Positions 17,571 through 37,883 of a DNA stretch of 64,000 nucleotides are shown piece by piece. Origin of the DNA: Quercus robur (lineage: Eukaryota > Streptophyta > Magnoliopsida > Fagales > Fagaceae); assembly GCF_932294415.1 (NCBI RefSeq), contig NC_065537.1:744001-808000 (forward strand). Reading direction: 5' to 3'. Each line of letters opens with the position of its first letter. Within the stretch, counting starts at the first letter, position 1. A model generated the notes under the pieces. The model saw only the letters and a program-made list of their open reading frames with translations. It made no database searches and had not been told where the DNA came from. The position numbers and the translations under genes were made by a program.

Positions 17571-19108
17571 ATGGATTCAAAGACACAAGTTGCTAATAAG
17601 CCTCATGCAGTTTGTATTCCATGCCCAGTTCAAAGTCACATGAAGGCAATGCTAAAGCTTTCAAAGCTTCTCCACCATGAAGGGTTTCACATAACCTTTG
17701 TGAACACTGAGTTCAACCACCAACGTTTTATGAAATCCAGAGGTCCCAACTCCTTAGATGGCTTGCCTGACTTTCGATTTGAAACCATCCCCGATGGTCT
17801 TCCTCCATCAGATATCAACGCCACCCAAGACATCCCTTCTCTTTCTGAATCCATTATGAACAACTGCTTGGCTCCATTTTCTGACCTCCTTGTAAAACTC
17901 AACAGTGCAACTTCATATAATCCTCCAGTTACTTGTATTGTTTCAGATGCTACCATGGCGTTTACAATTACTGCTGCTCAAGAATTCAAAATCCCTGTTG
18001 TGATGTTCTTCCCTATCTCTGCTTGCAGCGTAATGGGTGTTCTGCAGCTTCCTACTCTTAAGGACAAAGGCATTGTACCTCTTAAAGGTGTAACAAAAAG
18101 TGCAAAATCCAATTGAAATCTTGCATTATTTTTTTGTAATTAATCATTGTATGCTGAAAAATTTTTGTCTTTGCAGATGAGAGCTATCTGACAAATGGGT
18201 ATCTTGACACAATTATAGACTGGATTCCTGGTATGAAAGACATACGTTTGAGGGATCTTCCAAGCTTTGTACGAACCATTGATCCAAATGATATTGTTTT
18301 TAGGTGTGTGATTGATGTAGCAGAGAGAGCTCCTAGTGCTTTAGGAATTATTGTTCACACATTCGATGAGTTAGAGCAAGAAGTTTTGCATGCTCTATCT
18401 ACCATGTTTCCTCATGTATATGCTATTGGCCCTCTAGAACCACAACTAAATCACTTATCCAATGATCATTTGGAATCAATTGGGTATGGTTTATGGAAGG
18501 AAGAAACCGAGTGCCTCAATTGGCTTAATTCAAAGGCATCCAACTCAGTGATATATGTGAGTTTTGGTAGCATCGTTGTCATGACACCATCGCAATTGGT
18601 TGAGATTGGTTGGGGACTTGCAAATAGTAAGCACCCATTTTTATGGATAATCAGGCCTGAATCAGTTGAAGACGGATCAACGATTTTGTCACCTGAGTTT
18701 CAGGAGGAAATTAAAGAAAGAGGTCTAATAACTAGTTGGTGCCCTCAAGAGGAAGTGCTAAACCACCCCTCAATTGGAGGGTTCTTGACACATAGTGGTT
18801 GGAATTCAACCATTGAAAGTGTGTGCGCAGGAGTGCCAATGCTTTGCTTACCATTCTTTTCAGATCAGCAAACGAATTGCAAGTATACTTGCAATGAATG
18901 GGCTATTGGCATGGAAATTGACTTTGATGTCAAAAGAGTGGAAGTAGAGAATATGGTAATAGAATTGTTGGAAGGAGGTGAGGGAAAGAAAATGAAGAAA
19001 AAGGCCAAGGAGTGGAAAAAATTGGCCAAAAAGGCCACAGGTCCACTTGGTTCCTCATCCATTAACTTAAAAAATTTGGTGAGTGAAGTCCTTTTAACAA
19101 AAGGCTAA
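17571..19108 (+). CDS. UDP-glycosyltransferase, UGT85 type, complete, 2 exons
   Basis: Transfers a sugar, usually glucose, from a UDP-sugar to a small acceptor such as a terpenoid, phenolic or cyanohydrin, in the cytosol. Exons 17571-18087 and 18177-19108 join in frame (G|AT codon) to 482 residues, the usual UGT85 length; the intron is 89 bp with GT..AG. The catalytic His is at about residue 23 and its partner Asp at about 126 (CIVSDATMAF). The UDP-sugar box starts WCPQEEVLNHPSIGGFLTHS near residue 360 and ends FFSDQ near 402, with Gln last. The intron position and the LWKEETECLNWLNSK motif fit UGT85A. The N-terminal acceptor loop reads PVQSHMKAM where the family normally has P-AQGHINPM, which may change substrate choice. 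Substrate cannot be told from sequence. Confidence 0.92.
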
Positions 19109-19781: not shown

Positions 19782-19786
19782 ATACG

Positions 19787-20624
19787 TGTTAGGTTCTAAG
19801 GATTAGGAACTAATATATTAGAACTCTAATTTGTATTGTTCGCAAACCATGATCAAAACAAGTTTTAGTCTTATTTATACTTGCTCAAAGTGTATGCATT
19901 TTATGTAAAGTTGGAATTGAGTTACTACAGAATTTATTGTGCAATTCTGTCTGGCTCGATTGATCGAGAATTAGACTCAATCTATTGAAACTTGGGCATA
20001 ATGTTTTTTTGCAAAATTTTCCAACTCAGCCCTAGCCCGTTTGACGTGTAGGGTTTTATGTTTTGTCTTAAGTATAAAAAAGAAAACCCTAGCCACGTTT
20101 TGGTTACTCCTTATGCTGTGTGTGTGAATCTTTTGTGAGATCAAGAGGTGGTTGCCTTCACACATACTTAGGGTTTCCAAGATTCAAGATTATGTCAAGA
20201 ACTTTGTGATCATTTCAATTTCTACATTAAGAGCTCAAAGATATACAAGTGGGAGTGCTTGTACTTGCTGGAGAATCCAAGAAAGAAGGAGTCCGTGATC
20301 TCGGAGCTTGCACGTGGTCGTATCAGTAAGTTTCTACTGGTGGGTAATAATAGGATGTTAGTGGTCTAAGTCGCTATTGTAAAACTTCGATTCTTTCATA
20401 GTGGATTCAGGTTTACCTTGAGAATAGCTAGGTTAAATCTTCCCTAAGTTTTTACCGGTGTGGTTTCCTAGGTCATCATATCTTTGTGTTCTTTATATTC
20501 CGCATTTTACATTGATATGATTATATGATTGTGTTAACATAGATCTGAAATTTGGACTAAGTAATCACTTGGTTAATTCACTAGGTTAATCAGATTCTGT
20601 TTTTAAGGGGTCTAAAAACAAATA
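19787..20624 (+). repeat. 5' LTR of the Copia-like element (838 bp)
   Basis: Starts TGTTAGGTTC and ends CTAAAAACAAATA. The 3' LTR ends CTAAAAACAAACA, so the final bases vary. A short ORF in it on the minus strand is matched in the other LTR but is not a gene. Confidence 0.9.
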
Positions 20625-20626
20625 AG

Positions 20627-20638
20627 TGGTATCAGAGC
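20627..20638 (+). other. primer-binding site, tRNA-iMet type
   Basis: TGGTATCAGAGC starts two bases after the 5' LTR. This is the standard initiator tRNA-Met complement of plant Copia elements. Confidence 0.9.
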
Positions 20639-20697
20639 AAGTTGCTCTCTTGTTGTAGATCTTTTGATCTCTGAGTTGATCCTTAACCCCTGTTGTC

Positions 20698-22544
20698 ATG
20701 GAACACGGACACTCTTGTTATTCCACCTCACTTTGATGGGAATAATTATGCTTATTGGAAAGTAAGGATGAAAGCCTTCCTGAAATCAATTGATGAGAGA
20801 GTCTGAAACTCCGTTGAATACGGATGAGAGAAGCCCGCTACACCTGTTAATGAGTGGCAAACTTCTCAAAAAGAAGCAGCCGCATTCAATAGCAAAGCTA
20901 TGAATGCTATCTTTAACACTGTTTCTATGGAGAAATTTAAGAGAATCTCTAATGTTGAGGTTACTCATACTGCTTGGAATATCCTCCAAACTGTGCATGA
21001 AGGCACAAAGGCTGTTAAAATTAATAAGTTGCAGCAATTAACTTCTAAATTTGAAAGCATTAAGATGATTGATGATGAATCTTTTGATGAATTCTATGCT
21101 AAGCTCAATGATATTGTTAATTCTGCATATAATTTGGGTGAAACATCTATGATCAACCTAAAATTGTTAGGAAGATTCTTAGATCTTTAACTGAAGATTT
21201 TAGACCCAAAGTGACTGTCATCACTAAGAGTAAGGATGTGAACTCCATCCCTGTTGATGAACTTGTAGGATCTCTTCAATCCTATGAGTTGGACCTACCT
21301 AAGACTAGCAAATCAAAATCAATGGCTCTCAAGTCTGTTGATGATGCTGAGGCGAGTGGATTTGATGATGATCTCTTTGCTACTGAGATTGCTTACCTTA
21401 CCAAGAACTTTAGAAATCTTCTTAAGAACAATAACAGAAGGGCAAGAGGTAATAACATTGCTGAACCTAGAAATTTTAGGAGGAATGATCCCACTAAGGT
21501 TAATAACATTGAAAAACCTAAAGAAAAAGTAGGTCAACCTTCTAATAATTCAATGGGTCCTCAATGTTTTGGATGTCAAGGGTATGGTCATATGAAATCT
21601 GAATGTCCTACATACTTGAGGTCTAAGGGTAAGCCTTAGTGATAATGAAGTTTCTGATGATGAGTCTGGTTGTGATGAGGATGGAAACTTCATAGCTTTC
21701 ACTGCTACTGCTGTAGTCAATGAAAGCTTGTCTGTTGAAGAGAACCCTTCTGATAGGGAACTCTTTGAGGATGCAGATCTTCAAGAAGCCTATAATAAGC
21801 TTTGCAAAGTTGCTGCAAAGGATGCTATGAGTGTTGAATTAGGCTTAAAGAAAATTGCATCTCTTGAGCTTGATAAGAAAAATTTGCTTGTGAATTTATT
21901 TGATGCTATTGAACTTTTGAATAATGTGAAGACTAAGAATAAGCTTTTGCTTGAAAAAGTCAAGAAATTGGAACATGAACTACCTGTTGCTAGAGAACAA
22001 ACTGATAGGTCTGCAAGCTCCAAACTAGATCACATGCTAAGTGTTCAAAAGTCTCCCTCTAACAAAACTGGCTTAGGTTTTGTAGAAAGCATATCTGTGT
22101 CTGCACCCCATTCCACAAACTTTGTTCCTTCTTCTTCTTCCGAATCCCTTGTGAGTGAGATTGTCAAACCCTTTGTGAGTGAGGCTAAATCTGTAGAAGT
22201 TACACCACCTAGGAAGATTAGGGTTAATCTGAAAGAGTCTAAACCTAAGGAGTCTACCCTTACTAAGAACAAGTTGCATGGTAAGCCTGCTTAGGTTTGT
22301 CATTTTTGTGGAAAGTCTGGGCACATTCGTCCAAACTGTTACAAGCTGTAAGCTGCTAAGAGAGCAAACAAACCAAAAATACTTGTGCTTCAAACACAAG
22401 ATCCTATGGTTCTTATTGGTGAATTGGTAAAGGCTTTAAACCTTTATTCCAATCCTGGAGTTGGTAATCACTCTCATGTGAATAAGAACTCCATTGCTCA
22501 AAGAGCATCTAAAAAGTTTTGGATGCAAAAGGCTCAGTCTAAAT
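20698..22544 (+). pseudogene. decayed Copia-type gag
   Basis: Nucleocapsid-type Gag of the element. In the N-terminal half, the segment from about 20735 reads HFDGNNYAYWKVRMKAFLK, then KLQQLTSKFESIKM and DESFDEFYAKL: the UBN2/gag-polypeptide family of plant Copia elements. Two CCHC zinc knuckles are present, CFGCQGYGHMKSEC (about 21567-21608) and CHFCGKSGHIRPNC (about 22301-22342), separated by a charged coiled-coil-like stretch. It is dead: a frameshift near 20706, TGG-to-TGA type stops at 20803-20805 and 20824-20826, a frameshift near 21150, TAG at 21638 and TAG near 22293, and TAA near 22349. No protease or pol follows. Confidence 0.85.
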
Positions 22545-24606
22545 GAGTCTTTCTGACATGGTCTTTGTGCTTCATCGCTCTACTCTTTGTGACCATTGTT
22601 ATTTTTTTGTTTTATTTTGCTTCTAGGACTTGCATTACATAACATTCATGCATTGCAAATTAGGACTGTTTTTGTTTCTTCTTTTCAAAAAAAAAAAAAA
22701 AAAAAAAGGAAAAGGAAAAAGGAAGCAAATTGTGTTTTGCATTTTTTTTCTTAGATTTGAAATCAACGTTGGCCAATTTAATATTTACATAACATGTCTA
22801 TGTACTTTTTTTAGCTTGGATGAGTTTATTTATTACACTTTACTAATTGAAACTTTGTAGTGCATGTTGTGTGGGAAGATGTTTATAGCTTTTGATCACA
22901 TGATCTTGATCTTGAAGTAACATGCTTTTGATCGTCGGACTTGAACTTATTGAGAAAGGCATAAATAACCATCTCACCATTATTTTCTAGCCAATCATGA
23001 ACACTTTGGTGCATATCGTAAGATTTTGTGCTCGAGAAAGTGTAGCATATGTACAAAAAGAACATAAGGTGTAGTCTCGGCTTTAATAACTTCACAATCA
23101 AATAAAATTGGTGTGTACACTATCCCGACTATTATTAATAAGTTTCTGAACAAATAAAATTGGTGTGTACAATATGAGGAAATTCAAGAAACTTACATGA
23201 TTGCAAGCTTGTTTTCTAGGAGATGTGAGAGTTATATGATGTAACTCTTTAGGTGATAGTCTCTTTCAAATTCAATGTGATGAATTTTGTAGAAATTGTA
23301 GTTGATTTCTATTTACATTTCACCTCACAAGTATCTCAAGTTTTTGCTAGTTGCACACACTACACAAGTTATTCTTTGCTAAACTTCATACATGTTATTG
23401 TGTGTGATTTTGGTTTGGCCAACCAAGTTTGAAAATTCCTTGTATTTTATGCAAAATGTGTTTGAAGCCTGAGAATTTAAAGAGAATTGTTTGAACATCT
23501 TAATTTTGGGAAAACTGGGTTCAAAACAAGTGTTTTTGAAAAGTATTTCATCTCATACTCATGCATTTTATTCATAAAATTCAATGCTTTGAGGAGTTTC
23601 TGCAATATTTTGCTTTGATTTTCAAAAAAATATTTTTTCCAGAATTTCAACCAATCGAAAGTGTTTTTCAACCGATCGAAATTGTGATTAAAAGTTTTGG
23701 TTCGACTCTGTGTATTTTGATCGATCAAATTTGTTTTTCGATCAATCAAAATTGCAATTAAAAATTCTTGGCTTGGTTCTGTGTGTTTCGATCGATCAAA
23801 CCTATTTTTTGATCAATCGAAAATCGTATAGAGAGTTTTTTTAAAAAACCTTTGTTCCTCACATGTTCTTCACTATTCAAACTTTTCCAAAACACGTTCT
23901 CTCTCTATTCGATCGGTCCAAGAATCCTAGCAAGTTTTTTTTTTTGTCGTTTTCCTCCAAAATTTTTGCAAGGTTTTTCTCCTCTAAGGCCAGTAAGACC
24001 TTTTTACCCTTCTTTTTGCATTTATTTTCATGTTTCATGCATTAAATCATGCATTTTGGGGAAAATTTCGGACCTTGAAAAATTTGGGGATTTTGATGTT
24101 TTAAGCTTTTTCTTTCACAATTGATCATTGGGTTTTTGCTGTGGGACACTATAAAACTATTCTTGGTGAATTGATTTGATCAATTTGATGAATTTGGTGA
24201 AATTGAAATTTCTAAGGCTTGAAAGTAACCGATTTGGGGTTTTTGTTCAATTTGGTTTAAATTGATGAAATTGGCTTGTTTGGTTGATTGATTTGGTCAT
24301 TATGAATTGTTATCTATCATGTATAATGATCAATTTGGTCAATCTATTGGTTTTGTGAAATTGGGTTTTTCAAATTTTGGGATTTTTTATGTAAACTCTA
24401 TGCTCAAGCCAATTTTGTGATTTTAAAGCTAAATTGAACTTATTCTCACTGCATTAGGGCATGCATCATGTGTTGATAATGTTCATGCATTATATAGAAT
24501 TGTTATTTCTATTTTTTTTTTTTTTGTGCTAACTTGCAGTCTGCCTCTGGTTTTTCTTGTTTCTTTTTTGGTTCTTTTCTGTGTGTCTTATCCCTTCATT
24601 AGCATC
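22545..24606 (+). other. non-coding internal region of the Copia-like element
   Basis: Where pol would be expected there is T-rich, stop-filled sequence. It has an A-tract near 22688-22706 and a block at 23645-23830 of repeated ATCGAT/GATCAATC words. No RT, integrase or RNase H motif in any frame. Confidence 0.7.
23645..23830. repeat. tandem array of CGATCGATCAAA-type motifs
   Basis: Six spaced copies of ACC(A/G)ATCGAAA, TCGATCAAA or ATCAATCGAAA alternate with two copies of TGTGATTAAAAGTTTTGG-like/GCAATTAAAAATTCTTGG-like spacers, about 80 bp period. GATCGA words recur inside the LTRs (19957-19965, 36980-36990). Confidence 0.7.
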
Positions 24607-25706
24607 ATGCCTGGGAAACTAGAGTCAATAGGACCTCCACTTCTTCTCCTTCCCCCACCTTTGATAGTGATAGGTTCCTGAGTGAGAAAAACCAAGAAGC
24701 GTTAGAGAAGCTTAACCTTAGGAGAAACATTTGGGCTGAGAGAAAGGTTCTTTTAGATGAGCTAGATCCCGAGATTAGGCGTAACTTTGAGCATAGGGGC
24801 TGGTTACCTTTGTTGGATATTTCACATCCACCTCCTGCTACCTTGATCAGAGAGTTCTATTCGAACCTCTCTGTCTACTCCTATGACGCCAACACTCTTG
24901 TGAGGAGTTGGGTACAGAGTGTAAGGTACACCATTACCCCTTCGGTAGTGGCTGATGCCCTTGGGGTTCTGGTGGTCCATCATCCTGTCTACCCTTATGA
25001 TGAGTCTCCTCCCTTGGATGACATCATGTCTTATATCATTGGTTCTTCTATCCAGTGGGGTTCTGATCCTCAAATCACCACTGCTGAGCTCACTAAGATT
25101 CATTATCTCTTCTTTCAGATTACTTGTCATTCTTTTTGGCCTATCTCTCATCTGCACACCATTCCCTTGGAGCGTTGTGCATTTTTGTATGCCCTGGTTA
25201 CTGATGCTCCTATTAGCTTTCCTCATCTTTTTATTCGTTCCTTAATTGAGGTGCATATGAGTAGTTCTACTGCTCATGCTTTGTTCTTCCCCGTTTTTAT
25301 TCACCGGATTCTTTTGCATCTAGGTTTAGTTACCCGCGTCTGAGCCTGTTCACATAGTTTCTCCCATAGGTGCCACCTTTCTTAGGCAAAGGGTTGCTCA
25401 GTTGAGAGCTAGCTCTAAACGCCCTAGGGTAGAGCCTTCCAGTGTCGCACCTCCTCCTCCCTCTTCTACAGGTGATACTACAGCTGAGGAGCCCGTTGAT
25501 CATGCTACTGATGCTGCTGCTGCTGATGTTCCTTCACCTCCTACCTCGGATGATTCAGACATTCGACGTATGTTGGAGACTGTCGTGACCATTCAGGCAG
25601 CTCATGGACAGATTTTGGTGGACATGCTTATGAGCTTCGTGCTTTGCAAGCGAATCTGGAGCATTTGAGACGATTGCCTCCGCCACCTTCTTTTGATGAT
25701 ATGTGA
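24607..25706 (+). pseudogene. decayed 'putative plant transposon protein' ORF
   Basis: Second gene of the Copia-like element, function unknown. ATG at 24607 is followed by a one-base loss, then an open frame from about 24638 with FLSEKNQEALEKL and then PEIRRNFEHRGWLPLLD. The open part at 24810-25343 continues LIREFYSNLSVYSYD and ends LHLGLVTRV. This pattern matches the domain labelled 'putative plant transposon protein' (I recall Pfam PF20167; not checked). After a frameshift at about 25343 a Pro/Ala/Asp-rich tail follows (25402-25640), and a final frame shift leads to PPPPSFDDM and TGA at 25704-25706. Not protease, integrase or RT. Confidence 0.7.
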
Positions 25707-25726
25707 TTGCCCTTTGGCATTCTGTC

Positions 25727-25741
25727 ACAAAAAGGGGGAGT
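25727..25741 (+). other. purine tract resembling a second PPT
   Basis: CACAAAAAGGGGGAGT lies just after the second ORF. It resembles the true polypurine tract at 36796-36810 (CACAAATTGCCAAAGGGGGAGT). No LTR follows it. Confidence 0.5.
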
Positions 25742-26589
25742 ACACTTGTAGAGGATTTTTGTAGTTAGGAGGAGATTTTTGTACTTGTGGAGCTTGTGAA
25801 GCTTGTGGAGCTATTAGATTGTATCTAGGTGCTTCATTGTGTATTTATTTATTTTTTGGCTCATGATGTTTTTTTTTTTTTTATTTGATTGGGTTTTTCA
25901 TGATAAGGGGAGATACATTGATTGGTATATGTTTCTTGTTTCACATTGCTTATTGATTTATATTTATGAGTCATTCATGATATATGTCTTTATTGTGTGT
26001 TATGTGAAATCAAGAAGTTATTTTTGTTTTACTTGTATTTTCCACTTGTAAAAATGTACTCCCATTGTAAAAATGCGTTCTCCCCTAGATTGAGGGTTTT
26101 ACATGGAGTTGCCACTTATTTAATTTAAAAAGAAAAACAAGAAAACCTTTAATGAAAAATACTTTTGTTGCATTAATGTATTTGACAATTTACATCGAAT
26201 TTTGTAACAAAAATTTACAATGCTTTTTGTCCTAGGTACAATCTAAGAAAAGTAAATTACATTACTTTATTTCCTAGTTACATTCTAAAAAAGGTAAAAT
26301 TGTATATACAAGAGCATTGTCTAGAACCCTTGATCTTGGTTCGGAGGCTAATTTACGAGATGGGAAGGGAATAAGCACCCATCTCGCCCGGTAAAACCGG
26401 TCTTCCAGGTTAAGGTGGCCAATGTCATGTCATGTCAAACAAATACAAAGAATATGTAATATAAACATGTGATTTGCAAGAATTGTAAATAAATATGTGT
26501 TAGGGGAATTTGACGTAAAGAGAAACAAAAAATAAAATAAAAATAAAAATAAAACTTATTAGATAATAATTTTAATGTAAAAAAAAAAA

Positions 26590-27075
26590 TGAAGGTAGTG
26601 GCATGTTCATCCAAAAGATCAATATAAGTAAAGAATTCCTAGCCTAGACATGTTCATCTAAGCATGTGAAGGAAAAACAAGATTGTCATGTTATTTGTCA
26701 TCAACATAATTGAAAAGAGAAACAAATAAAAAATAAAACCTTTAAGCATATTTGATCATCCAAGCAATTATGAAGAGAAGTAAAGGAAAAACCCTAGACA
26801 TGTTTATCTAGACAAAATCAAAATACTTTGACATGTTTTGTTCAAGCATTTAAAAAATAGTAAAACAACAACCTAGACATGTTTATCTAAGTATTAAAGA
26901 GAAAGTTTTGTTTTAGCCTAGAAGTGCTCATCTAAGCATTCAAAAGAAAATTGTGTATTAGCCTAGAAGTGTTCATCTAAATATGTAAGAGAAAACCAAT
27001 AAGATATATAGGCATGTTCATCCAAGCATAGCATAAAAGAAGTGAATAATGATTTGTAAGCATTTATTCTAGCAT
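26590..27075. repeat. degenerate ~60-bp minisatellite in the LTR
   Basis: About ten spaced copies of (G/C)CCTAGACATGTTCATCTAAG-like words, each followed by CAT and an AAAG-rich spacer. The same array is in the other LTR at 34830-35300. Confidence 0.75.
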
Positions 27076-27445
27076 GTATAGAGAATTAAAAAAAAAAATA
27101 AAATAACTACTTACCAGCATAAATTAAAAGGGGAAGTGATCACTTAAAGGGCTAGGGAGAAAGTAAGGAAGTACTAAACTACAACCAAAGTAAGAACAAT
27201 GGTTGTTAATTAGCTTTTCTTTTATGCTTTTTCACTAACTCTCTAGAGGGAATTCGTGGTCCAGAAAATGGAAGAGGTCTTTTCTATTTATAGGGGAAGG
27301 GATGGCTTAGCTTTAAAGCTAAGTTATTAGCTTTCTTCTGAAGCTAAGGGAGTAGATAACTGTTTAAATGAGCTGGGGACGGATTTGGTGTTGATCCCCA
27401 TTCAAATTTTGAAATGATGCTGCCCCTGCTTCTTATTTTGGCTCT

Positions 27446-27985
27446 AATTTTCCGCTCAAAATTCCAATTGATTCAAGATGGGTGTTTTTTGAAAGGAAAT
27501 TCAATTATCTACAACTTTTTCAGAAATAGAAAAGGCCAAATTTCAAAGTTATCCATGCCAAAAATGTGTTTCAAATTGCTGCTGAAAATAGTAACGTCTT
27601 TTGAGCATTTTTTATTTTTTTCATAGGCTGTATCTGTTTCTTTACCCAATTTATTTTTCAAAAATATTTCTTCTGAAGCAAAGGGAAAGGATAAGTCTAT
27701 TAGATAGGCTGGAACAGATTTGATGTTGAGCCCATTTGAAATTTTGAGAGAAAATTGAAGATAATGCTGAATTTGTGTTATCTTCTGCACCTGTTTGGTT
27801 TTTTGGCCATAACTTGCTGCTCAAAATTCCAATTGATTCGGGATTGATGTTTTTTGAAAGGAAATTTAATTCTCTACAACTTTAATAGAAATAGAGAAAT
27901 CCAAATTTCAACGTTTTTCTGACCAAAAATGCGATTCAAGTAGCTGCTGAAGATAATGACATTTTTTTAGCATTTTTCTGTTTTT
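27446..27985. repeat. 370-bp-spaced direct repeat in the LTR
   Basis: 'CTCAAAATTCCAATTGATTC' with 'TGTTTTTTGAAAGGAAATT' and the following ~120 bases occur at 27458-27610 and again at 27826-27985. The second LTR has both copies too (35680-35840, 36047-36205). Confidence 0.85.
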
Positions 27986-28363
27986 TTGAATTTTTCATGA
28001 TCATGTCTCCAAAAAATTTTAAAAGAGCAAATAAGATGCCATAAAGAAATTTTTTTTTTTTTATCATTTCTTTAAAAAATGAAATAAAATGAAATCCAAT
28101 CAAAAATCACACTTAATTAATTTTAAATTAGTTCTTGTGAGAACCAATCAAAATTAAGTGTTTAAAATAGGATGTGATCAGGCCCATTGTGTAGGCAAGT
28201 CATGATCATTGAAAATTGTTTATATGATAACTTTTGATCAGGTGATCCGATCAAAACCTATGACATACCATTATGATCATTAGAGCATCAAGATTTGTTT
28301 TGTATCACAAATCTGAAGATCTACTGGTTGGTTAAATGCAAGTTGTAAAATGGGGTGTCTACA

Positions 28364-31300
28364 GAATGCTTCTCATTGACAGAGCTTGAAAAGCAAATGT
28401 CAATGTAAAAGAAAGACACCAAATTTTGCAACTTGAAATTTAACCGATGTGCGATGAAAATTTGTTAAAGTTGTGGAAACTTGTTGGTTTCCAGAAAAAT
28501 TTTAATCCAAAATGTTTTGGCAATTTTTTCAAAAAAAAACTTGTTATTATTTTTTTCAAAAATTTTGAACCTGTAAATTATCTTAAAAATACCTTGTCAG
28601 GCTTTTTTATTTGAAAAGTCGGTTGGGCTTTCTTGTAAAGATCTTGACAAATTTTCTAAAAACTTATCTGTTTTTTGAAAAATTTTTGAACCCAAAATTT
28701 GTTGAGAAACTTGTTGAATTTTCTTTTGAAAATTTTGATATTCTTACCCAAATTTGTAAACAATGTTGGGCATTCTTGGAATGATCTTGTCATGTCTTTT
28801 GGAAATTTGATAAAAATCTTGTTGGAAGATCTTGGCAAATTTTCTAAAAACTTGTCTGTTTTTTGAAAATTTTTGAACTTGAAACTTGTTGAAAATCTTG
28901 TTGAATTTTCTCTTGAAAATTTTGATATTCTTATCAAAATTTGTATTTGTGAAAACATGTTGGGCATTCTTGGAATGATCTTGTCATGTCTTTTGAAAAT
29001 TTGATAAAAACCTTGTTGGGTTTTTCTGAAAACTGTGTAACATTGTCAAGCGTTCTTTTTCTGAGAGATGTTTGAAGATCTTGTAGAATTTTCCTCAACT
29101 TTTGAAAAAGATGCTAAAACTTTCTAAAATTCTTGTTTGATTTTTCGAGAAAATTATGAAAACCTTGTTTTGAAAAATTGTTGACAAACCTTGTTGGGTT
29201 TTTTTTATGAAAATTTTGTTCACAAACCTTGTCGAGTTTTGAGAATTTTATTTTTTTGAAAATTTGTTAAATAAAGTATGAAAACCTTGATGGGTTTTGT
29301 TGAAAATTTGTAAGAATTTTGAAAAACTTTCAAGTTTCCTTGAAAAAAAATTTATGAATTTTCTAAAAATCTTATTGGATTTTTCTGAAAACTTTTTGTG
29401 ACTTTCAAGAAAAAAAAACCTTTGTCAAACCCTAGAGCCTGAGATGTTGCACAATACTAGTCAACTTCAATGAATGCAAGAGACTCCTTAGTTGAGCCTT
29501 ATGTGTTGTGGGAGACTTCTTAGTTGATCCATGTGAGATGTGAGACTTCTTAGCTGATTTGGTGATCTGGACTTGAAGTTGTTATTGAATGCTGAGAGAT
29601 TTTTGCTTAATTCCTGCAAAGATGAAAATTTTCCTTTATCAAACTTGTTAGAAACAAGTTAATTTGAACCAATGCCCCTAGTATAAACATGCTTGCATAG
29701 AAAAATAGATGAAAAGCTTGCATATGAAAACTAATGGACCAATGCTCATAATTTAGGCATGCTTAATGCAGATAAAAAAGCAAATGGGCCAATGCCCCTA
29801 GTTTAAAGCTATTTGCAAACAACTTTGGGTCATTGTCTTGATTTGGTACCTATTGTTTACAGAGCCTTTAACAGGTTGCCTATGCACCTTTCTTCACGAG
29901 GACTAGGTTAGACATAGTTCAAGTTTGTAGGGAAGACATCTAGTCCACCCAAAAGATGATCATGGCTTCCAACCAAACCTTGCATTGCATTTTCAAAATG
30001 GACTTGATCATGAAAAATTTTGTTTTTGAAAGAAATTGATTTTCTTCTTGAAAAACCATTTGGTGAATAGTGGTGCCTTTTGAGAAAATTCTTTTTCTTT
30101 CTCAAATGATCATGAGATAATCCTTTCAACAACTATTTTAGCATATCATATTGTTTAAGAGTCAAGTCAATCTTTTGACTAAAAAGGATCACAGTCATTG
30201 AATGCATGTAATCAAATTTGCTTCTTCTTTTTAAACATTGTTGGATTAGGTCTTCAGGGACAATCAAAGAAATGAAATGTAGAGATATTTGAGAGTCATG
30301 TGATTTTTTTTTTTTTTTTTTTTTTGAGTGCTTCAAGTTTGGGTGACACTTTTTTTTTTGGGATAGAAACAAAGAGGAGTGCCCCAAATTTGGGAGTCAC
30401 ATTTGTTGGAAACAAACAAAAAGGGAGTGCCCTCTATTAGAGAATTCTTTCAAGTCATTTGAGAATTTAAGAAACTGTGTTATGGAGATTACTTGCCAAT
30501 GGGGCTTGATAACCTCAAGCATTTTTCCTTTTTAATCCAAGAGAAAATATTGCCAGAGTTAAAGATGTGCCTATGACTAGCAGAACTTCAAGGAGGTCTT
30601 TATGCATGGGTTGTAATGTAGGCTAGGTTCAGGTTATGAAAGAAATGATATAAAAATGCTCAAAATCCCCTGTAGATATTCCACTCAAGTGTGCAATACT
30701 CAAAAGTTAGGCATTAGAAGGATTTTCTTGTTTCTCCCTTTCTTGACATTGTGCTGAAATTCTCATCATTCTTGTCATCTGCTCATTGGTCATCATGGAT
30801 CATTTGTATCAAAGTTATATCATTCTTGTTTGCCTTGTATTCTTCTTAGGCAACTCTTTTTTGAGCTTTCAAATTTTCTTCTTTGATTCGAATTTGTGTT
30901 AAGGTCTTTGTTGTGATTCAATTTTTCTGCCTTTCTCTTCATTGATCTATTATATGAATGTGCTTTCATGCTTGTTTTTCAAACCTCTAGACTTTCATCT
31001 TGACAAATCTTTCCTCTTCTTTTGTAACTTGTGACTAGGCCGCCTTTTCAGTTTTTGACCTTCTTTGTTCTTCTTTTTTCCCTTCTTTTGAAACCTATGA
31101 CAATGTTGCCTTTTCTTTTTCTCTTCTTTGGGCAATTGTGACTAGGCTGTCTCTTCGATTTTCGACCAATTGGACTTCTTTTGTTCTTTTGTATTCCTCT
31201 TTCTTTGATAGCAAATGAATGAATGATTTTTTTTTTATATGACTGTGTTTGAAAAAGCTGCCTATGTACCTCTTTTAAAAGAAGGATCAGGTCATCCATA

Positions 31301-32699
31301 GTTCAAAATAATTTTTTGTGCCTTAATTTTTGCCTAGACTGCCCTTTCGGGTTTTCAATCTAGCATTGTTTTTTTTTTTTTTTTTAATCCCTAATTTTTG
31401 CCTAGACTGTCCTTTCAGGTTTTCAATCTAGCGGGATTTTTTTTTTTTTTTTTTTTTTTTTGGTGTTGCTTCATGCTTTCTGACTTGATGAGCTCTCATC
31501 TCTTTCCGTATGATGGAATCTCTTGGCTTTCATTTGATGAAGTCTTGTCTTCTCACCTTGATGGAGTATTATCATCTACATTCTCAAATGTGATCTTCAT
31601 TGTTTCTTCTAATCTTGATGGACTCTGCTTTTCTTGATGTCTTCATTGAAGCAATGAGATTGTCCTCCTTAGCATAAAATTTGAGTATGCACACTCGAAT
31701 TTTCCCACCCTAGGTTTAGGTTGTTATGGGTTCATGAAAAAAAGGCTAACTGTTTAATAGCTCAAATGGGCTAGCAATGGATAATATATGTAATGGGTGT
31801 CAAGGAATAATGTGGCTAAACCAAAGATGGCCTCCTATCCCTAGTAAGGCATGTTAATAGGCACGGTAACTCGAACTCTTTTAGTAACTTCCTCTTGGAA
31901 TAAAAATTATGAATGCTTCAATATTGTGACACAAAAAAATGTTCTAAGATTTGGATTGAGTGTACATTGTTTAAGAATTCTAATTGGTGGAATCTTTTTT
32001 TGTTGAGATTTCCTAATAACTGGATTTTCTTTGATTGCCTTTTAGGACCTTCTCTTCTTATGTTCTAAGTGATTCAGCAAAGATCCTTACTTTGAATTAG
32101 ATGAAATTAATTCTCTCTTGGTGCACATTGATTGGTTGGCCCATTAAGCAGTATGATTTGCAAAAGATTTGCCAAAGGAATTCTCATGTAGTACTTGAGG
32201 AAAATAACATTTGAAAATTTTGACCTCTCACACTCTTTCCAGGTGGACTAGGCTTTGATGAGAAGATTAAGCCTTACATCATTTTTGAAAATCCACTAAA
32301 GGGCCAAATGCCCCTGGTTGGAAGATTTATTTTTTGAAAGTTTTCCTTGATTTTATTTTACTATTTTTTTTTTCTTTTTGAAGAAAAGCATTTTTGTAAT
32401 TTTTGAAGGATTATCATGAACAAGTCCATTTTGACAAAAATTGTAGGCCTCAAGGAAACCATTTTCAATTGGGCTTTGAAAGGAGTCAAAAATGTCACTA
32501 AAGATCCCAATGCCCCTAGTCCAAAGTTTTCTTTAATTTTTATTTTTATTTTTTTGAGTTTTTGAATTTATTTTTTTTTTAATTTTTGCATCAAACACAA
32601 CATGAATAACAAAATGCATCAAACAAGAAATGAAATTAAAAAATGGAAACAAGTAAGGAACAAACAAAGCTTATAATAAAAAAAAAATTCTTGAAAAAC
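28364..32699 (-). other. non-coding internal part of the nested element
   Basis: 4.3 kb of T-rich plus-strand sequence with no RT, integrase or protease motifs. 28600-29440 is built of degenerate 'CTTGTTGGGTTTTTCTGAAAA' units; 28641-29015 is a ~188-bp tandem duplication. 'AATGCCCCTAGT' words recur at 29670-29810 and 32310-32520. Short ORFs with K/R-rich or F-rich content are composition artefacts. Confidence 0.7.
28641..29015. repeat. ~188-bp tandem duplication
   Basis: 28641-28827 and 28828-29015 both start GATCTTG(A/G)CAAATTTTC, contain GGGCATTCTTGGAATGATCT, and differ by small indels. Confidence 0.85.
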
Positions 32700-32717
32700 C
32701 CATTATGGCTAGGCAAC

Positions 32718-33560
32718 TCATGAAGTAGAGTTGGATTGATTGGTAGATGCTGGTGCAGCAATGATTTGTTGGCCCATGAGATCTTGGATAATCCCACCGT
32801 TGTTGATGGCATCTTCAATTTGGGTTCCAACAGCAATTAGGGTCTTGAAGTTAGGAAAGTATCAAGCAAATAGATACTTGTTGTAGGTCGGGAGGAGATT
32901 CTTCACAATCATGTTCAATTGTTCTTCCTCATTGGGCCTAATGATCATCTGGGCTGCTTTTGTCCTTCACCTTGTGATGAATGCATGAAAAGATTCACTG
33001 GAATCTTGCTTGGTTGTCTCAAGGTCTCGCCAAGTGATGTCCACCTCAGTATTGTACTTGTATTGCTTGTAAAATTCATGGCACATATCTTTCCAAGTCC
33101 GAGTTCGAGAATCCTCCAAATTTAGGAACCAACGTAGGGCAGCTCCCAAGGGTTGCAATGCTCTTATGTACATGTTCAGATGGGCTTTAGGGCAGCTCAT
33201 GCCATCAAACTTGTCCAATGTTGGCATCTTAAACTTTGGTGGGGCCCTTGCTTAAGGAAAGAGCGAAAGTGAATGCAGATCCATAGCTTCTTTAACCCTT
33301 CTAGATCTCATTAGGAGCTTTTCCATTTGGTCCATTCGTTCAACCATCTTCTTCTCATTTTCAATCAACACCAAGCCATGGCTTTCTTTAGAATTTCTGG
33401 GTCCATTATCATTTTGGGCCCTCAAGGATTCATGAGAGTTCTTGTTCCCCATTTGTTGGATCAATGCTTGGATGTCCTTTTGGAGTTGGGCTTGACCTGC
33501 TACCAAAGTGTTGAGTAAATCTTGATTGGTGAGAGGCGGTTGTTCCCTGTGATCATTCAT
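32718..33560 (-). pseudogene. decayed TAT/Ogre-like gag
   Basis: Reads on the minus strand. 33560-33252 encodes an N-terminal region (MNDHREQPPLTNQDLLNTLV, Gln-rich helix) ending at a stop. 33227-32967 encodes the conserved retrotransposon gag core with CPKAHLNMYIRALQPLG, AALRWFLNLEDSRTRTWKDM and YKQYKYNTEVDITWRDLETT, then a TGA where a Trp is expected. Further frame to 32718 includes NEEEQLNMIVKNLLP and TQIEDAINNGG. A short segment between PLG and AALRW, present in related gags, seems deleted. It is truncated, with no protease or pol behind it. Confidence 0.85.
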
Positions 33561-33789
33561 GTGTCAATCTTCTTGGTTGTTGGCCATTTCTCAATTGGAA
33601 GCCTTGGTTTTGATGTTTGCTAAGGCCTTGCACTTTAAGATTGGTGGCTTTAATCTTGATGTCTTTAAGCATGATGATCTTGAGCTTTTAGATATGCTTT
33701 GAACTTGGTGGGCTTGAACCCTAATTGAGATTCTTTGGTCTCAACCAAAATGCATAAGTTACTTCTTTTTTTTTTTTTTAAAGAAATCT

Positions 33790-34276
33790 TAAACAATTAT
33801 GATGGGCCTAAGCATTAGACTAAGGCACATCATGGATCAAACAACGGCCAAACACATTCATGTGATGCAATGTATTTTATGGGATTAACCTAAAGATTAG
33901 TTCTATGGCTTCTTACATGAAGGTAAAAGGTAGGCTAATAGGTTCCCCAAAAGCTAGGACGTTGTACCTCCCAACTTGTGACGTACGAACGCCGCGTTGG
34001 TTCAAACGGTAGAGTTTGTCCTTTACAAAACGTGAGAAAGATCAAGCGAGTCTTAGGCGATGGGGTGGTAGGTTCACCACTGGGTACACAAATCTAGGAG
34101 GACCGCGATCCATGGCTACAATTACTGTGGTTTCCGGGCAAAAAACACAATTCATATCCAATTCCAATTATGCAAATGATGTTATAGCAAGCAAATATGA
34201 CATATTATTAAAAGCAATAAACAAACAAATGACATGGTTGGCCACCATAACTTAAACTAGAGTCTAGCCTTCAACA
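33790..34276 (-). other. leader of the nested element
   Basis: Region between primer site and gag. It is GC-richer than its surroundings at 33960-34130. A 79-codon plus-strand ORF crosses it but is in the anti-sense direction and not recognisable. Confidence 0.5.
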
Positions 34277-34294
34277 TCCCCAGCAGAGTCGCCA
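34277..34294 (-). other. primer-binding site of the nested element
   Basis: Minus-strand TGGCGACTCTGCTGGGGA begins one base after the 5' LTR. It starts with TGG, complement of a tRNA CCA end. Such sites are usual in TAT/Ogre elements; the exact tRNA was not determined. Confidence 0.75.
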
Positions 34295-34295
34295 C

Positions 34296-36606
34296 TGTAA
34301 AAATGTACTCCACCCTAGATTGAGGGTTTTACATGGAGTCACCACTTATTTAATTTAAAAGGAAAAACAAGAAAACCTTTAATGAAAAATACTTCTGTTG
34401 CACTAATGTATATGACAATTTACATTGAATTTTGTAACAAAAATTTACAATGCTTTTTGTCCTAGGTACAATCTAAGAAAAGTAAATTACATTGCTTTAT
34501 TTCCTAATTACATTCTAAAAAAGGTAAAATTGTATATACAAGAGCATTGTCTAGAACCCTTGATCTTGGTTCGGAGGCTAATTTACGAGATGAGAAGGGA
34601 TTAAGCACCCATCTCACCCGGTAAAACCGGTCTCCTAGGTTAAGGTGACCAATGTCATGTCATGTCAAACAAATACAAAGAATATGTAATATAAACATGT
34701 GATTTGCAGGAATTGTAAATAAATATGTGTTAGGGGAATTTGACGTAAAGAGAAACAAAAAATAAAATAAAAATAAAAATAAAACTTATTAGATAATAAT
34801 TTTAATGTAAAAAAAAAATGAAGGTAATGGCATGTTCATCCAAAAGATCAATATAAGTAAAGAATTCTTAGCCTAGACATGTTCATCTAAGCATGTGAAG
34901 GAAAAACAAAATTGTCATGTTATTTGTCATCAACATAATTGAAAAGAGAAACAAATAAAAAATAAAACCTTTAAGCATATTTGATCATCCAAGCAATTTT
35001 GAAGAGAAGTAAAGGAAAAACCCTAGACATGTTTATCTAGACAAAATCAAAATACTTTGACATGTTTTGTTCAAGCATTTAAAAAAAAGTAAAACAACAA
35101 CCTAGACATGTTCATCTAAGTATTAAAGAGAAAGTTGTGTTTTAGCCTAGAAGTGCTCATCTAAGTATTCAAAAGAAAATTGTGTATTAGCCTAGAAGTG
35201 TTCATCTAAGCATGTAAGAGAAAACCAATAAGACATATAGGCATGTTCATCCAAGCATAGCATAAAAGAAGTGAATAATGATTTATAAGCATTTATTCTA
35301 GCATGTATAAAGAATTTTTAAAAAAAAAAATTAACTACTAACCAGCATAAATTAAAAGGGGAAGTGATCACTTAAAGGGATAGGGAGAAAACAAGGAAGT
35401 ACTAAACTACAACCAAAGTAAGAACAATGGTTGTTTAATAGCTTTTCTTTTCTGCTTTCTCACTAGCTCTCTAGAGGGAATTCCTGGTCCAGAAAATGGA
35501 AGAGGTCTTCTCTATTTATAGGGGAAGGGATGTCTTAGCTTTAAAGCTAAGTTATTAGCTTTCTTCTGAAGCTAAGGGAGGAGATAACGGTTTAAATGAG
35601 CTGGGGATGGATTTGGTGTTGATCCCCATTCAAATTTTGAAATGATGCTGCACCTGCTTCGTATTTTGGCTCTAACTTTCCGCTCAAAATTCCAATTGAT
35701 TCAAGATGGGTGTTTTTTGAAAGGAAATTCAATTATCTACAACTTTTTCAGAAATAGAGAAAGCCAAATTTCAAAGTTATCCATGCCAAAAATGTGTTTC
35801 AAATTGCTGCTGAAAATTGTAACGTCTTTTGAGCATTTTTGAATTTTTTCATAGGCTGTATCTGTTTCTTTACCCGATTTATTTTTCAAAAATCTTTCTT
35901 CTGAAGCAAAGGGAAAGGATAATTCTATTAGATAGGCTGGAACAGATTTGATGTTGAGCCCATTTGAAATTTTGAGAGAAAATTGAAGATAATGCTGAAT
36001 TTGTGTTACCTTCTGCACCTGTTTGGTTGTTTGGCCATAACTTGCTGCTCAAAATTCCAATTGATTCGGGATTGATGTTTTTTGAAAGGAAATTTAATTC
36101 TCTACAACTTTTATAGAAATAGAGAAATCCAAATTTCAAAGTTTTTCTGACCCAAAATGTGATTCAAGTAGCTGCTGAAGATAATGACGTTTTTGGAGCA
36201 TTTTTCTGTTTTTTTGAATTTTTCATGGATCATGTCTCCAAAAAATTTTAAAAGAGCAAATAAGATGCCATAAAGAATTTTTTTTTTTATTTCTTTAAAA
36301 AATGAAATAAAATGAAATCTAACCAAAAATCACACTTAATTAATTTTAAATTAGTTCTTGTGAGAACCAATCAAAATTAAGTGTTTAAAATAGGATATGA
36401 TCAGGCCCATCGTGTAGGCAAGTCATGATCATTGAAAATTTTTCATGATCATTGAAAATTTTTTGTATGATAACTTTTGATCAGGTGATCTGATCAAAAC
36501 CTATGACATACCATTATGATCGTTAGAGCATCAAGATTTGTTTTGTATCACAAATCTGAAGATCTACTGGTTGGTTAAATGCAAGTTGTAAAATGGGGTG
36601 TCTACA
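34296..36606 (-). repeat. 5' LTR of the nested element
   Basis: Collinear with 26047-28363. It has one extra ~20-base repeat near 36436-36460 (CATGATCATTGAAAATTTTT twice) that the other LTR lacks. Confidence 0.9.
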
Positions 36607-36795
36607 CCACTTGCGTTTATGTGTTTGTTGAGTATTTTAGGAAATATACAGGTTGATTCCGTCGTGCTGCTGTCTACACTTGCAACTGATAGATAGTAAT
36701 TAGGTTGAATTTGTTGTGTTGGGCTATGTTTTTATATTGGGCTGTTTTTATGTAAACTTTGAGCAATTTTGTTTAGTTTTGTGTTTTGTCACAAA

Positions 36796-36812
36796 TTGCC
36801 AAAGGGGGAGTT
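36796..36812 (+). other. polypurine tract of the Copia-like element
   Basis: CCAAAGGGGGAGTT directly abuts the 3' LTR start TGTTAGG at 36813, the standard site for plus-strand priming. Confidence 0.85.
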
Positions 36813-37629
36813 TGTTAGGTTCTAAGGATTATGAACTAATGTATTAGAACTCTAATTTGTATTGTTGGCAAACCATGATCAAAACAGGTTTTAGTCTTGT
36901 TTAGACTTGCTCAAAGTGTATGCGTTTTATGTAAAGTTGGAATCGAGTTACTGCAGAATTTATTGTGCAATTCTATCTAGCTCGATCGATTGAAACTCGA
37001 GCAGAATGTTTTTCTACAAAATTTTCCAACTCAGCCCAAGCTCGTTTGACATGTAGGGTTTTATGTTTTGTCTTAAGTATAAAAGAGAAAACCCTAGCCA
37101 CGTTTTGGTTGCTCCTTATGCTATGTGTGTGAATCTTTTGTGAGATCAAGAGGTGTTGGCCTTCACACATACTTAGGGTTTCCAAGATTCAAGATTATAT
37201 CAAGAACTTGGTGATCGTTTCAATTGCTACATTAAAAGTTTAAAGATATACAAGTGGGAGTGCTTGTACTTGCTGGAAAATCCAAGAAAGAAGGAGTCCA
37301 TGGTCTCGGAGCTTACACGTAGTCATGTCAATAAGTTTCTACTGATGGATAGCAATAGAATGTTAGTGGTCTAAGTCGCTATTGTAAAACTTTGATTCTT
37401 TCATAATGGATTCAAGTTTACCTTGAGGATAGCTAGGATAAATCCTTCCCAGGTTTTTACCAGTGTGGTTTCCTGGGTCATCATATCTTTGTATTCTTTA
37501 TATTCCGCATTTTACATTGATATAATTATATGATTGTGTTAAACTAGATCTGAAATTTGGACTAAGTAATCACTTGGTTAATTCACTAGGTTAATCCAAT
37601 TGTGTTTTTAAGGGGTCTAAAAACAAACA
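36813..37629 (+). repeat. 3' LTR of the Copia-like element (817 bp)
   Basis: Matches 19787-20624 end to end, lacking a ~20-base segment near 36985. Followed directly by the target duplication ATACG. Confidence 0.9.
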
Positions 37630-37883
37630 ATACGTTTCTTTGTGGCTTGGATGATCCCAAAATTTTGGACAAAAATTATAAATTATAAGTTTCATTTTGG
37701 ACTAAGTTTAATTTGTTATCTTTTTTTCCTTTCTTTTCCTTGATTGATAGATGTCATCCTATGATAGTATATAGTGTATAATGATATAATGTTATTCTAT
37801 TACGTAGCATATTTTGGATAATTTCTTTTTACAACCATACCTTTCCTTTTGAGTATTACTTTACTTATCTTCTTTTATATAAA

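Follow-up and report, generated by a model that had tools for sequence, protein, structure and literature searches.

A 64,000-nucleotide (nt) stretch of the Quercus robur genome (contig NC_065537.1, positions 744,001 to 808,000; the window) carries a long terminal repeat (LTR) retrotransposon that has a Copia-type gag, a second open reading frame (ORF2) matching PF20167, and no pol. We favor the interpretation that this Copia-type retrotransposon is split into at least two parts and that the window element is a dead copy of its gag segment. The family has a common backbone of LTR, 73-nt leader, shared ATG, cassette, spacer, PF20167 ORF, and LTR, and the cassette is either gag or pol (protease, integrase, and reverse transcriptase). 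Gag and pol are alternative cassettes on this backbone, each seen in dozens of the places examined. Each form includes complete insertions flanked by target site duplications (TSDs), LTR divergence is similar in the two, and the backbones are not sorted by cassette. Movement probably depends on cooperation between gag and pol copies, much as in a virus whose genome is in pieces.

Family search and gag-form elements

The genome (786 Mb, 42 contigs) was searched for further copies. First-look candidates numbered 998 for gag, 715 for pol, 1225 for ORF2, and 770 for a third cassette, and the best 40 of each were scored; loci are given as L numbers. The best 40 of the 1225 ORF2 places match at least 958 of 1100 bases of the DNA query at 84%–100% identity. 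Of the 39 places outside the window, 20 were read with 9.9 kb of surrounding sequence and a further 10 with 4.15 kb of upstream sequence. Counting the window, 19 of these 40 ORF2 copies belong to the gag form, seven to the pol form, and two to a third form. Two of the seven and one of the two were assigned by coordinate alone, and the 19 include two placed by coordinate across insertions (L011 and L015), two with gag fragments (L018 and L019), and one with a divergent gag (L039). L027 and L028 share a TSD and represent a single duplicated insertion, and L025 and L034 look like a second duplicated pair, so copy counts are counts of places and not of independent insertions. Closely similar pairs of elements lie at C38:3.55/3.74 Mb (~0.19 Mb apart, same TSD) and C38:44.80/44.94 Mb (~0.14 Mb apart), which we read as segmental or assembly duplication.

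The order LTR, leader, gag, spacer, ORF2, tail, and LTR was found in half of the 20 long loci, some with insertions (L009, L010, L012, L013, L016, L017, L020, L022, L027, and L028). The 3′ LTR match breaks off in L009 and L020, and the 5′ end of L022 lies outside the fetched sequence. Perfect TSDs flank seven independent gag-form insertions (the window element, L010, L012, L013, L016, L017, and L027/L028). None of the 31 gag copies examined, from the best 40 of 998 candidates, runs into pol, and the gag query excluded the junction between gag and the next segment. Gag is followed by the spacer in the window and in the 10 long loci, although in L022 only past a 1.1-kb insertion. Twenty further gag copies (181 nt each) lead into the spacer (n = 17), an LTR (n = 2), or unassigned sequence (n = 1). 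A clearly divergent gag lies upstream of the same spacer at L039:2823-4151, as an exchange of gag itself would leave.

Pol-form elements

In L014 and L023, the region between leader and spacer encodes Pol_BBD, gag_pre-integrs, rve, SH3, and RVT_2 domains in that order, with no gag match in this region of either locus. Integrase precedes reverse transcriptase, which is the Ty1/copia order; the gag in the window is likewise of the Ty1/copia type (PF14223). Pol in L025 and L026 was identified by DNA match to pol in L014 and L023. TSDs are perfect in L023 (ACATG), L025 (GGATT), and L026 (GTCTT), which thus have pol, intact ends, and no gag, the layout of a Tos17-like element; in L014, four of five bases match and lie in an AT repeat. 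Pol is opened by the ATG that also opens gag. Its N-terminus, beginning MDTWKIFLLICHLVYLLFLSL, is hydrophobic and conserved (best 19-residue Kyte-Doolittle mean of 2.2–2.5), and a protease motif is found downstream (WYLDSG in L023 and L025, WYLDNG in L014). This conserved N-terminal extension of ~50 codons was not seen in gag forms. All four pol forms have YVDD, and internal stops or frameshifts are present.

The leader is joined to pol without gag in 38 of the 40 scored pol copies (best 40 of 715), namely L014, all 20 copies with upstream pieces of 551 nt, and 17 of 19 with upstream pieces of 161 nt. The leader is only partial in L070, L071, and L083, and no LTR end was matched in place in L071 and L078. 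ATGGA is present in 17 of the 20 longer pieces. The remaining two copies are L073, which has no clear call, and L080 (C5:41262770-41262930; also L104), a chimera in which gag minus its C-terminal CCHC motif is joined inside the pol N-terminal extension. This structure fits recombination between gag and pol RNAs.

Junctions, backbones, and age of the two forms

Identity between the forms stops at ATGGA on the left (four gag, two pol, and two third-form rows) and returns ~10 nt past both stop codons on the right (four gag and four pol rows). With junctions at the ATG and just past the stop, the cassettes are close to whole-ORF replacements. The two forms are complementary components with partly shared sequence, with LTR, leader, and ORF2 common to both.

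Phylogenetic trees were constructed from ORF2 and from the tail plus 3′ LTR (21 rows, four of them without an assigned form at the time). Gag and pol forms are intermixed in both, and the starred branches force at least three changes of form. L022, a gag form, is sister to L025, a pol form, with values of 100/97 in ORF2 and 89/80 in the tail. Mean ORF2 identity is 0.901 between gag forms (78 pairs), 0.903 between pol forms (six pairs), and 0.904 between gag and pol forms (52 pairs); the respective values for tail plus LTR are 0.896, 0.901, and 0.900. Pol forms have a gag form as their closest neighbor in four of four cases for ORF2 and three of four for the tail, which says little alone because gag forms make up 13 of the 16 possible neighbors. 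ORF2 and LTR sequences thus form one mixed pool, as though cassettes had been exchanged between backbones, a pattern that would be expected if co-packaged RNAs underwent template switching. If the lineages were independent, their backbones would stay separate. Repeated identical deletions or gene conversion could in principle also produce the mixed pattern.

Kimura two-parameter (K2P) distances between paired LTRs are 0.065–0.093 in gag forms (0.057 over 502 nt in L022; L009 and L020 from partial LTRs) and 0.063–0.091 in four pol-form elements. The overlap of these ranges indicates that both forms moved in the same period.

Structure of the window element

The host element spans 19787-37629 on the plus strand and is flanked on both sides by the 5-bp TSD ATACG (19782-19786 and 37630-37634). 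Its LTRs (19787-20624 and 36813-37629) are 92.2% identical, with a K2P distance of 0.084. The primer binding site (PBS), TGGTATCAGAGC, lies directly 3′ of the 5′ LTR, and PBS and leader, as far as ATGGA (20625-20702), are common to pol-form and third-form elements. Gag (20698-22546) matches PF14223 (E = 1.9e-9), a copia-type gag; CCHC matches are weak and under the Pfam cut-off, and two CCHC motifs were identified by eye. The 2.06-kb spacer (22547-24606) is common to gag and pol forms. ORF2 (24607-25714) is followed by the 3′ tail (25715-26046 and, beyond a nested insertion, 36607-36812), which includes the polypurine tract (PPT), AAAGGGGGAG, preceding the 3′ LTR. Stops and frameshifts break both genes in this copy. 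Longer open stretches of gag are found in L016, L017, and L022, and ORF2 is open for 368 aa in L015 but only over 24810-25343 in the window.

An initial annotation of positions 20625-36812, made from sequence alone, had described a primer site, a purine tract, gag, and a plant-transposon ORF in an element without protease, integrase, or reverse transcriptase at 22545-24606. All four parts were confirmed, including the domain call for 24607-25706, which matches PF20167 (Transposase_32, "Putative plant transposon protein") in Pfam with E = 1.7e-20, and no Pfam family was found in any of six frames of 22545-24606 at E 0.01, so that no pol domain lies there. The span itself is the interior of the host element and is not one element throughout, as it hides an unrelated LTR element at 26047-36606.

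This nested element, which is outside the family, is 10.6 kb long, has its own TSD (CCACT), and was inserted later into the host 3′ tail; by coordinates, the host without it is ~7.3 kb. Its LTRs (26047-28363 and 34296-36606) are 2.3 kb each and about 95% identical. The sole retroelement domain in six frames of its interior is a degraded Retrotrans_gag (PF03732, E = 2.7e-8), and a Mating_N match falls just below the cut-off. The element is probably on the minus strand, as its gag match is antisense. Its PBS-like sequence, TGGCGACTCTGCTGGGGA, is presumably reminiscent of Tat/Ogre elements. Outside the host element, 0.7 kb upstream, a 291-aa ORF at 18233-19108 has a motif by which we take it to resemble a UDP-glycosyltransferase.

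Third cassette and the PF20167 protein

In L042 (3079-4151), the leader and ATG open an ORF that encodes a coiled-coil-like stretch and one CCHC motif, and the family ORF2 lies downstream. Among the best 40 of the 770 candidates for this cassette, two have a listed ORF2. L063 (1632-2403) and L064 (377-1289) have LTRs 76%–79% and leaders 83%–87% identical to those of the window family. The L063 ORF, 233 codons long with two zinc knuckles (PF00098), gave no gag-domain (capsid) match at E 0.5. L064 has an altered start codon. This cassette may be a third segment or merely a truncated gag.

PF20167 is little studied. AlphaFold gave no usable model of ORF2 (10 rows, 368 aa; mean pLDDT of 37), and the best match among PDB sequences, at E 0.14, is not meaningful. 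As with ORF2, the 3′ ORF of a sunflower Athila element matches PF20167, and it is described there as related to Athila ORF1 (PMC11728184). Plant 3′ ORFs are often termed env-like, a label called controversial in one account (PMC7264820). A further PF20167-like protein (33% identity over 132 residues) was found at L024:380-1564. The sequence around it is common to L024, L018, and L035, upstream of family elements, and is perhaps a second PF20167-bearing family.

Interpretation and alternatives

We lean toward a cooperative split family, in which gag and pol reside on mutually dependent Copia elements whose RNAs would share particles and recombine. One LTR promoter and one start codon would express Gag from one RNA and protease, integrase, and reverse transcriptase from the other. 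The shared leader would allow Gag shells to take up both RNAs, and Pol would enter particles without a Gag-Pol fusion; foamy viruses express Pol separately from Gag. Reverse transcription and integration of both RNAs would follow, and switches of template within the spacer or ORF2 would bring gag or pol cassettes onto new backbones. For the PF20167 protein, we propose a putative accessory function shared by both halves and retained whichever cassette is carried. As a tentative extension, the family could be a multipartite LTR retrotransposon of gag and pol segments and perhaps a nucleocapsid-like third (coiled coil and two CCHC motifs), with the same leader and ATG, co-packaged, and reassorted over the PF20167 backbone by template switching, with no full-length form needed.

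Several observations weigh against cooperation. Twelve of the 40 ORF2 copies have no assigned form (L021, which is deleted; L024, L033, L035, L037, and L038; and six not fetched). Some scored places are duplicates, and only the best 40 of 715–1225 candidates were scored in each of these searches. The pol query held ~150 nt of the N-terminal extension, which biases its best 40 against gag-pol elements lacking the extension, and L080 shows that gag and pol can occupy one element. Label shuffles were as low in 500 of 500 cases, which says only that the form label is not clustered and is based on four pol rows. LTR divergence of 6%–9% makes the insertions old, and no copy was shown to be active. 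A comparison of shared variants with singletons gave weak third-codon-position enrichment in gag (P = 0.026; 0.014 with a stricter cut; spacer control 0.068 in the opposite direction) and none in ORF2 (P = 0.54) or in two parts of pol (P = 0.77 and 0.92, few sites). Median pairwise ratios of nonsynonymous to synonymous substitution (dN/dS) of 0.53–0.55 for gag, ORF2, and the reverse transcriptase part of pol are within the range of shifted frames (0.48–0.76), and the value for the 5′ part of pol, 0.36, has no such control. Domain conservation, more than these tests, is thus the main basis for assigning function to each ORF.

The main rival is that both forms are independent parasites (TR-GAG-like and Tos17/BARE-2-like) that arose as deletion derivatives of a full-length gag-pol helper beyond the reach of our searches, hence the shared ends. 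We consider this unlikely but serious. One-sided dependence is already known, the scope of the best 40 and the bias of the pol query leave room for a helper, and L080 carries the family's gag and pol together. However, pol follows gag in none of the 31 copies examined, with a query free of the junction, and L080 has the structure expected of a late chimera, lacking the gag C-terminal CCHC motif and retaining some of the pol N-terminal extension.

It is improbable that both forms are retrocopies of alternatively spliced RNAs from one gag-pol parent. The junctions, at the ATG and close to the stop codon, are precise and repeated, and a spliced gag-only RNA is described for BARE1 as a route to Gag without Pol (PMC3735527). 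Against this, the parent was not found among the copies scored, the pol-form extension of ~50 codons is not seen in gag forms, and both forms occur in many places with similar LTR divergence. A private loss of pol in the window copy, old and broken as that copy is, was rejected as next to impossible, since the layout is repeated in a family of pol-less copies with their own independent TSDs.

The initial annotation had proposed such a pol-less family, to be abandoned if most members carried pol between the two ORFs, and it withstands this test, in that none of the 31 gag copies examined runs into pol. Its description of the family as non-autonomous and borrowing pol was incomplete and is better replaced by that of a split family, as sister elements that share the LTRs, the leader, and the PF20167 ORF carry a matching pol without gag. 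The accessory gene said to be kept with gag is present but is not restricted to gag elements, as both halves carry it. The system is real and under-described, as supposed, although only half of it had been seen.

Comparison with known systems

TR-GAG elements are not known to carry an ORF other than gag. Gag-form elements resemble them in having LTRs and gag without pol, and differ in their PF20167 ORF and in the matching pol on sister elements with the same ends. An autonomous element would have gag and pol together, and here there are no pol domains in the window, no gag copy among the 31 running into pol, and one chimera among 40 pol copies. The pol form resembles Tos17 of rice, a Copia element with pol, LTRs, and PBS from which gag was cleanly removed, but Tos17 is presented without a gag partner with the same LTRs, and its nearest complete element, Lullaby, has gag and pol together, with PF20167 absent from the Pfam table of that paper (PMC3977881). 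It also resembles the gag-deficient BARE-2 of barley, which is packaged in the particles of a relative. The dependence of BARE-2 on BARE-1 is described as one-sided parasitism (PMC3735527), whereas each half is incomplete here. Like the gag form, pol-less Athila families keep gag and a 3′ ORF (env-like in their case) and show recombination between families, but Athila is Ty3/gypsy, and the recombinant described for it gained pol, whereas a separate pol half that lacks gag and shares the backbone is not part of that account (PMC2410132).

A literature search covering titles and the beginnings of abstracts, with most subscription journals outside it, found no LTR retrotransposon whose gag and pol lie on separate, matching elements. 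We regard bipartite florendoviruses as the nearest analogue. Caulimovirids, to our knowledge, lack LTRs and integrase. Florendoviruses are caulimovirids and the element here is an LTR retrotransposon, but in both, a reverse-transcribing genome has complementary, partly redundant components, which for florendoviruses were inferred from plant genomes (PMC10377300).

Tos17 and BARE-2 are read, in the accounts cited above, as one-sided users of a complete helper. The oak family looks cooperative instead, because the two halves supply each other's missing genes and have their ends and a third gene in common. It opens two questions to testing in one genome, whether an LTR retrotransposon can be maintained with a multipartite genome and whether two different RNAs occur together in plant particles and recombine. 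Where annotation assumes gag and pol on one element, both halves may be classed as defective.

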